A DNA stretch of 32,680 nt, taken from positions 1 through 32,680 of the forward strand of contig JAFGJG010000065.1 of NCBI GenBank assembly GCA_016929195.1, read 5' to 3'. The notes below the pieces were generated by a model. It searched no databases and was not told the origin of the DNA. It was given only the letters and a program-made list of their open reading frames with translations. This DNA is from Thermoleophilaceae bacterium. GTDB taxonomy: Bacteria > Actinomycetota > Thermoleophilia > Solirubrobacterales > Thermoleophilaceae. Each line of letters starts with the position of its first letter. The first letter of the stretch is position 1. The position numbers and the translations under genes are program-made. Shown in pieces: positions 821 to 16,882 of this stretch.

Positions 821-868
821 CAAGTGTCCTGACTATCGGTTGCAGAGCAACCACAGGGCAGGACGCTT
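821..868. repeat. 48-bp structured repeat, copy 1
   Basis: This copy is identical to 963-1010 except at one base (T here, G in copy 2, at the 16th position). It folds as a hairpin. The outer arms AAGTGTCCTG and CAGGACGCTT pair over 10 bp with one G-U, and an inner perfect stem GGTTGC/GCAACC closes on an AGA loop. The element lies just downstream of the Rpf-like gene, in a gap between two convergent genes. Confidence 0.85.
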
Positions 869-962
869 GGCAATGAAGACGCACGGGACCGTGACAACGG
901 CCCCGGGGCGCCGCGGCTCCCTCACCGCGGTCGTTCGTTACGGCCCTGTGCGCGGAGCGGAG

Positions 963-1010
963 CAAGTGTCCTGACTAGCGGTTGCAGAGCAACCACAGGG
1001 CAGGACGCTT
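963..1010. repeat. 48-bp structured repeat, copy 2
   Basis: This is the second copy of the hairpin element at 821-868, in the same orientation and 142 bp downstream. It ends 4 bp from the stop codon of the minus-strand MBL hydrolase. It could act as a terminator for one or both convergent genes or be a REP-type repeat. There is no T-tract, so a standard intrinsic terminator is not shown. Confidence 0.85.
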
Positions 1011-9258: not shown

Positions 9259-9331
9259 TGGGCCGTACTGGGCTCGAACCAGTGACCTCCGGCTTGTCGA
9301 GCCGGCGCTCTCCCAGCTGAGCTAACGGCCC
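9259..9331 (-). tRNA. tRNA-Val (anticodon GAC)
   Basis: On the minus strand all four arms form: acceptor GGGCCGT/ACGGCCC, D arm GCTC/GAGC, anticodon stem CCGGC/GCCGG with loop TCGACAA, and T arm ACTGG/CCAGT with TTCGAGC. The anticodon GAC reads valine codons, and A73 fits tRNA-Val. CCA is not encoded. Position 33 is C instead of the nearly invariant U. The 5' end lies 6 nt after the stop of the epimerase gene, so the tRNA is probably cut from a longer transcript. Confidence 0.93.
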
Positions 9332-16245: not shown

Positions 16246-16316
16246 AGGCGCCGACCGGAATCGAACCGGTGTAAACGGCTTTGCAGGCCGCTGCGTAACC
16301 ACTCCGCCACGGCGCC
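16246..16316 (-). tRNA. tRNA-Cys (anticodon GCA)
   Basis: On the minus strand the acceptor GGCGCCG/CGGCGCC, the anticodon arm GCGGC-CTGCAAA-GCCGT and the T arm ACCGG/CCGGT with TTCGATT all form. The anticodon is GCA, the discriminator is U73 as in tRNA-Cys, and CCA is not encoded. The length is 71 nt. Confidence 0.95.
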
Positions 16317-16808: not shown

Positions 16809-16882
16809 GCGGCTGTAGCTCAGTTGGCTAGAGCGTCTGCTTGCCATGCAGAAGGTCGTGGGTTCGAATCCCATCAGCCGCT
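16809..16882 (+). tRNA. tRNA-Gly (anticodon GCC)
   Basis: The acceptor GCGGCTG/CAGCCGC, D arm GCTC/GAGC, anticodon stem TCTGC/GCAGA with loop TTGCCAT, and T arm GTGGG/CCCAT with TTCGAAT are visible. Anticodon GCC and U73 fit tRNA-Gly. CCA is not encoded. The length is 74 nt. It has its own promoter and is followed by an intrinsic terminator. Confidence 0.95.

Follow-up and report, generated by a model that had tools for sequence, protein, structure and literature searches.

In elements of the IS200/IS605 group and their miniature derivatives, a small unit with a single gene has a subterminal hairpin at either end. For REP/RAYT systems, the sections available of two reports describe a gene capped by palindromes, dispersed cognate copies of these palindromes, co-evolution of both and a partner of the Y1 type (Nunvar et al., 2010, PMC2817692; Bertels and Rainey, 2011, PMC3116915), and in these sections the palindromes are tied to one enzyme class, the Y1 RAYTs. 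The available part of a report on CGTC-tagged REPs presents a super-family without a dedicated transposase, whose palindromes lie mostly behind coding regions and have an unpaired CGTC-like tag, a stem of 8-9 bp and a loop of 4-5 bases (Di Nocera et al., 2013; PMC3733652); the string 'actinobacteri' is absent from its main text. In the portion available of its description (Anantharaman et al., 2013; PMC3710099), the MTES_1575 domain, which has a bearing on the protein discussed below, belongs to a multidomain HEPN protein. Here we describe a pair of hairpins from a Thermoleophilaceae bacterium, known from a draft genome of 3.46 Mb in 193 contigs (97.6% complete, 3.2% contamination), and compare it with these systems. 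The window, i.e. the whole stretch of DNA that was analysed, comprises 32,680 nucleotides.

The hairpin pair and its dispersed copies

Two near-identical 48-bp hairpin elements between convergent genes had originally been predicted close to the start of the window, and closer analysis agreed with this description. Positions 820-868 and 962-1010 share 98% of their 49 bases, with a single difference, and 94 bp separate the two 48-bp repeats (821-868 and 963-1010). In the fold of each repeat, the outer stem is 10 bp long and includes one G-U pair, and the inner stem of 6 bp closes a loop of 3 nt. Fold z-scores of the two repeats were -4.8 and -3.4 on the plus strand and -4.2 and -4.3 on the minus strand, with 0, 1, 0 and 0 of 200 shuffles, in this order, folding as well. 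Hairpin A (822..868, plus strand; conserved core 826-864, plus strand) consists of the outer stem AAGTGTCCTG/CAGGACGCTT with one G-T pair, the inner stem GGTTGC/GCAACC and the loop AGA, and hairpin B (964..1010, plus strand; core 968-1006) has the same orientation as A and differs from it in one base. The pair is flanked by a gene for a transglycosylase-like protein (PF06737; 335..805, plus strand), which ends 16 bp before hairpin A, and by a convergent gene for a protein with a metallo-beta-lactamase fold (PF00753; 1015..1749, minus strand), the end of which lies 4 bp after hairpin B. No Rfam match covered the pair, and a CRISPR-DR20 match at 232-283 with 24.5 bits (cut-off 42 bits) was taken as chance. 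Elsewhere in the window, ordinary genes for tRNA-Val(gac) (9259-9331), tRNA-Cys(gca) (16246-16316) and tRNA-Gly(gcc) (16809-16882) were detected.

When the genome was searched with the core pattern GTCCTG-N6-GGTTGC-N3-GCAACC-N6-CAGGAC, allowing up to two mismatches, 38 places were found, as opposed to none with the reversed pattern that served as control, so the hairpin pair is far beyond chance. A local duplication is ruled out, because the 38 copies are dispersed in the genome. The core pattern with up to two mismatches was also matched in 3 of 60 relatives, and an exact scan of genome_contigs with a slightly looser pattern, in which records near the source genome are possibly absent, gave only three stretches, two in Candidatus Siliceabacter maunaloa (Solirubrobacterales) and one in a Thermoleophilaceae MAG. 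A covariance model, R1, built from 45 hairpin copies and run on 232 genomes of the order, was positive in 21 of them (E <= 1e-3). As at most the best 25 candidates per genome were scored and near-palindromes match on both strands, R1 counts per genome are not copy numbers.

Among 31 sites in the source genome, 28 lie between called genes, two at contig edges and one within a weakly scored ORF; the 5' hairpin of a gene-bearing copy described below overlaps its gene, unlike the extragenic copies. Of the two functions originally proposed, that of a REP-like family is thus the one that held, in that short palindromes occur in many dispersed, extragenic copies (38 in the source genome) and across the order, whereas a paired bidirectional terminator as the function of the family did not. 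Hairpins were also read in stretches from 14 other genomes. In 50 chosen hairpins from 14 genomes the stems covary strongly: 92.0% of the cells were paired, and 96 cells showed double changes, as opposed to 38.7 (s.d. 6.7) after shuffling and 10-24 when the partners were slid. The arms adjoining the core vary jointly by genome, with GTCCTG/CAGGAC nearly invariant. Such symmetric covariation fits a hairpin in DNA or RNA and equally a palindromic protein site. Two local arrangements were seen in addition: in G018 (L133, L134, L135, L136 and L139) hairpins stand in tandem at a spacing of about 72 bases, up to three in a row and with conserved spacer letters, and at L111 (G123) a separate near-perfect palindrome, TTAGGTGACCCTAAGATCTGTTAGGGTCACCTAA, lies about 10 bases behind the hairpin.

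The placement of the copies bears on the terminator question. With gene orientation called by a simple codon-usage gene caller, 20 of the 28 classifiable sites in the source genome were convergent (one of them the 3' hairpin of the gene-bearing element), seven tandem and one divergent, compared to 6 convergent cases among 33 other junctions of the window and 2 among 46 element-free junctions in the same loci (Fisher test, P 3e-5 against the window and 2e-9 against both backgrounds together). Together with the many copies found few bases behind a stop codon, this excess is what would be expected if the hairpins were bidirectional transcription terminators or stabilisers of mRNA 3' ends between convergent genes. 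An intrinsic terminator is a GC-rich hairpin followed by a T run, but none of the 76 flanking 8-nt tails in the source genome had five or more T, and the stretch 600-1200 yielded no terminator-like call. Enrichment between convergent genes recurred weakly in G058 (8/16, P 0.035) and was not seen in G123 (4/15), G018 (3/8), G110 (0/7) or G001 (1/5), counts that exclude one contig-edge case and the hairpins overlapping called genes (four in G123, one in G058, one in G110 and three in G001). As it is absent in four of five other genomes, the convergent-gene bias was rejected as a trait of the family. Moreover, the hairpin of the genes described below overlaps the start codon, which would be an odd location for a terminator, and neither the core motifs nor the link to a gene would be explained. 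Termination as the main function of the family is therefore not supported, and we regard this explanation as quite unlikely.

A hairpin-capped gene and its relation to the pairs

At six fetched loci, an ORF, intact or broken, begins at the hairpin. Three of the proteins, P0001 and its relatives P0002 and P0003 (64 and 65% identical to P0001), matched AbiEi_4 above the cut-off (30.8-43.2 bits) and the Vsr-type MTES_1575 domain below the cut-off. A search of the order with an alignment of P0001-P0003 gave at least 276 bits in 19 genomes and further fragments in G018 and G001, with related AbiEi-nuclease genes forming a background of at most 240 bits. In the source genome there is one strong member (447 bits), located outside the window contig on contig 55 (38433-39326); each end carries an R1 hairpin, and the two are equally oriented. 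The entire unit of 971 bp consists of the two hairpins flanking a gene for 303 amino acids, the GTG start of which lies at the apex of the 5' hairpin with two of its bases in the loop, while the TGA stop falls in the 3' hairpin, within its 5' arm. R1 hairpins on both sides of the gene likewise turned up in G058 and G123, and at none of ten generic relatives scanned.

For the contig-55 protein, the AbiEi_4 winged helix (PF13338) was matched with 39.2 bits (cut-off 25), and the PADLOC AbiEi models and PF13338 match the N-terminal winged helix and the middle region. The C-terminal third gave a weak match to MTES_1575 (PF18741) of 23.6-30.9 bits, with 24.0 bits for the copy of the source genome and a curated cut-off of 38.2. 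Asp230, Glu241, His248 and an Arg column are invariant in 15 clade proteins; the three acidic and histidine positions fit a working nuclease, with a catalytic role that is predicted from a sub-threshold domain match. A search of the PDB by sequence led to two matches (E 0.085 and 0.65), both taken as chance.

The window pair is one of six hairpin pairs in the genome. Start spacing is 141-142 in four pairs and 116-118 in two, and in all six, as in the gene copy, the hairpins are direct, i.e. in the same orientation. Within the window mini-element (hairpin A, spacer and hairpin B; 822..1010, plus strand), the core begins with CGCAC (880..884, plus strand), the first base of which is the 16th after core A, and ends with GTGCG (948..952, plus strand), which terminates 15 bases before core B; GTGCG is the inverted repeat of CGCAC and in the window copy belongs to a longer imperfect inverted repeat. 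Among the 38 hairpins, CGCAC exactly 16 bases after the core was found for ten, including the 5' hairpin of the gene-bearing copy, compared to four scattered occurrences elsewhere in the first 90 bases (mean 0.05 per other position). Likewise, GTGCG ended exactly 15 bases before the core of eight hairpins, one of which is the 3' hairpin of the gene copy, with no occurrence elsewhere within 90 bases, and both motifs were never found together on one hairpin (n = 38). This fixed register makes the pairs, and some of the solo hairpins, look like the termini of a single type of unit. The pairs thus resemble MITEs, in that they are non-coding and have their ends, hairpins as well as CGCAC/GTGCG in the same register, in common with the gene copy on contig 55. 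Pairwise alignment of the spacers with this copy was mostly not significant, the only exceptions being the two ends of C39 (P 0.019 and 0.001). At L156 (G001:C92), a broken, apparently internally deleted clade gene stands behind its start hairpin, and this copy is a possible step between a full copy and a mini-element.

The units may also be divided differently, with the core from CGCAC to GTGCG (47-73 bp; about 855 bp where the gene is included) as the real transposon and the hairpin with 15 bases on each side (69 bp) as its duplicated target. The left flanks of hairpins A and B of C107 are identical at 15/15 positions up to the motif and at 5/15 beyond this sharp edge, the right flanks at 11/15, and the left flanks of C39 agree at 12/15. 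This identity hints at the hairpin and its flanks as a duplicated target; a permutation over the six pairs gave P 18/720 for flank identity, and beyond the edge the flanks are not alike. In addition, the core ends of C77, which is the window copy, form a longer inverted repeat that none of 2000 shuffles equalled. Beyond the 5-base motif, inverted ends in the other five cores scored no better than in shuffles, and the joint P of 0.0085 therefore comes from C77. Four of the six pairs, including that of the window (only 8 and 7 of 15 identical, stem tips included), show little identity of the flanks though their hairpins stay alike, the flanks of the gene copy on contig 55 agree at only 6 and 4 of 15 positions, a target duplication of 69 bp would be very long, and across the clade the 5' hairpin is part of the gene. 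Taken together, we consider a target duplication somewhat unlikely. A comparison of the window locus with the orthologous loci in G001 and G002 showed different neighbours without synteny and no clean empty site, and no movement of the hairpin units was seen.

Association of gene and hairpin across the order

A clade of 28 genes, with membership defined by score, was compared to 27 rows of weaker relatives (26 distinct, as L232 repeats L195). In a tree of 54 rows, from which the repeated row had been dropped, the clade was separated from the other rows by a branch supported at 100/99. The start codon lies at the apex of a hairpin that exceeds the 99th percentile of shuffles in 22 of the 28 clade genes, compared to 3 of the 27 rows of weaker relatives, and the median score of the apex hairpin is 12.3 in the clade (null mean 5.2) and 5.6 in the relatives. 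The three apex starts outside the clade, L205 (G087), L242 (C27:23379-24263 of the source genome) and L244 (G046), have strong and quite different hairpins, which suggests that the apex-start habit is wider than the clade; L242, L205 and L244 may have hairpin families of their own. The 3' flank was the best match, among all 28, to the 5' flank of the same gene in seven genes and the second best in one more. With a 5'-related 3' flank in only 8 of 28 genes, it is therefore the 5' hairpin and the gene that are conserved, not a two-ended element. A GGGGGGCGAA-like motif upstream of the 5' hairpin was observed for many genes in L176-L198, and also for the relatives L195 and L198, which have no strong hairpin; perhaps it is a promoter or operator of the protein family.

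For all five genes with R1-type hairpins, the gene hairpin was closest to the dispersed copies of its own genome. In the source genome its likeness to own copies is 0.80, compared to at most 0.67 elsewhere; the closest margin was that of G058 (0.73 vs 0.69), and the comparison for G004 rests on two dispersed copies. A further case is G014 with at least six paralogues that have different start hairpins, among which the hairpin of L183 is unrelated in sequence to R1. As predicted for a hairpin dispersed in G014 only, a search with L183 led to four further places in this genome at E <= 0.0023 (C17, C10, C4 and C7), besides its own two hairpins, one place at E 0.03 and one chance-like match of 17 bases, and to none at E <= 0.1 in eight other genomes. 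The copies at C10, C4 and C7 are clearly palindromic, and the place on C17 resembles another gene start. A corresponding search with the gene hairpin of G047 found the query alone; it also missed the known 5' hairpin of that gene and is therefore insensitive and says little.

Gene and hairpin also co-occur. An intact clade gene was present in 13 of 21 hairpin-positive genomes and in 6 of 211 others (P 7e-12), a co-occurrence that is partly trivial because gene-borne hairpins count as matches. Of the genomes with at least three hairpin places among the matches listed, 8 of 9 contained the gene or a fragment, compared to 13 of 223 others (P 9e-9). Hairpin-positive genomes without clade gene or fragment were G003, G030, G080, G111, G118 and G140, three of which are less than 80% complete. 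Beyond the order, 16 stretches of viral contigs matched a peptide pattern and none was confirmed, plasmids gave no match, and a phylum sample of 396 genomes gave no match of clade strength besides the source genome itself; as this sample evidently contained no other clade genome, it says little about a wider spread.

The same association could be regulatory, in which case AbiEi-type genes would be controlled by the hairpin as an operator or in the 5' leader, and the dispersed copies would be binding sites or decoys instead of mobile DNA. This would agree with the AbiEi_4 winged helix and with the apex position of the start codon in 22 of 28 clade genes, and the palindromic covariation suits the site of a protein dimer as well as a hairpin. 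It is less easily reconciled with the 20 of 28 classified sites of the source genome that lie downstream of both neighbouring genes, and the conserved core ends of the mini-elements and the identical 15-base left flanks in C107 point to insertion. A purely regulatory role of the family is hence considered unlikely.

A possible mechanism and comparison with known systems

From the dispersal of the hairpins, their covariation, the link to the gene, the common end motifs and a hairpin that tracks its gene in the cases compared, all of which are observed, the window pair probably belongs, as a non-autonomous mini-element, to a palindrome family that is REP-like and linked to a gene (probability about 0.6). 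The best reading of the family is that of a system of mobile, REP-like palindromes that has a nuclease as partner, by which it would be mobilised, and this suggests that the partner enzyme of a self-spreading family differs from the one known for such repeats. The winged helix of the protein may recognise its own hairpin in the DNA, where the Vsr-like nuclease domain would nick or cut, and repair or copying at the break could then spread hairpin-ended units. Presumably, full copies would give rise to internally deleted mini-elements and these to solo hairpins, which would persist where they do little harm, in the source genome mostly behind stop codons between converging genes. Since the start codon lies at its apex, the hairpin probably has a second effect: by itself or through bound protein, it would restrict how much of the protein is made. 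A more far-reaching version, in which the AbiEi-type winged-helix/Vsr-like nuclease replaces the RAYT and cuts and spreads its own hairpin, the apex-start hairpin throttles translation, and many lineages of the order have private pairs of gene and hairpin, is tentative and in our view possible rather than probable. If true, such enzymes would be candidates for REP families without a known transposase.

If a RAYT (Y1 tyrosine transposase) moved the palindromes, as in an ordinary REP/REPIN system, they would likewise be dispersed and extragenic, with genome-specific subfamilies and some gene copies flanked by hairpins. Yet PF01797 (Y1) was not matched in the source genome (97.6% complete), while the same search was positive in 6 of 14 control genomes, GTAG was absent from the six bases before the core in all 45 aligned copies, and the six pairs and the gene copy are direct, as opposed to the two inverted palindromes of a REPIN. 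We therefore consider a RAYT-driven system very improbable. Within the literature covered, to which most subscription papers and all preprints did not belong, no description of a nuclease-linked REP was found.

As in REP/RAYT systems, to the extent of the sections available (PMC2817692; PMC3116915), the kind of palindrome that flanks the gene is also dispersed, variants are genome-specific, changes are compensatory, and singlets as well as doublets occur. Unlike in these sections, the partner is an AbiEi/Vsr-like protein and not a Y1 HUH transposase, there is no GTAG head, the doublets are direct, the hairpin overlaps the start codon, and 38 copies were found here instead of the usually over 100 given in the published abstract. 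With the CGTC-tagged REPs, as described in the available part of PMC3733652, the family shares the position of its palindromes mostly behind coding regions; it differs in that no unpaired CGTC tag was found and CGTC/TGTC letters, where present, are paired inside the two-step stem of 10+6 bp. Like IS200/IS605, the family has a small element with a single gene and a hairpin at either end; the absence of a Y1 match in the source genome and a gene for a predicted winged-helix/endonuclease protein set it apart. The partner protein resembles AbiEi antitoxins (PF13338; PADLOC AbiEi) in its N-terminal winged helix and middle region, but adds a C-terminal endonuclease-like domain, and its gene has hairpin ends. 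To the MTES_1575 Vsr-type REase domain (PF18741) it is related by the weak C-terminal match and the invariant Asp, Glu, His and Arg columns, with a score below the curated cut-off of 38.2, and the published domain, in the portion available, belongs to a multidomain HEPN protein (PMC3710099).

Here, a palindrome family is tied in a RAYT-like way to another kind of protein, a predicted nuclease, and the parallels are that the gene is capped by the palindrome, that in the cases compared each gene has a palindrome of its own, and that dispersed copies and miniature derivatives exist. If this link is functional, it would represent a second solution for the spreading of short palindromes and would assign a role to AbiEi-nuclease proteins.
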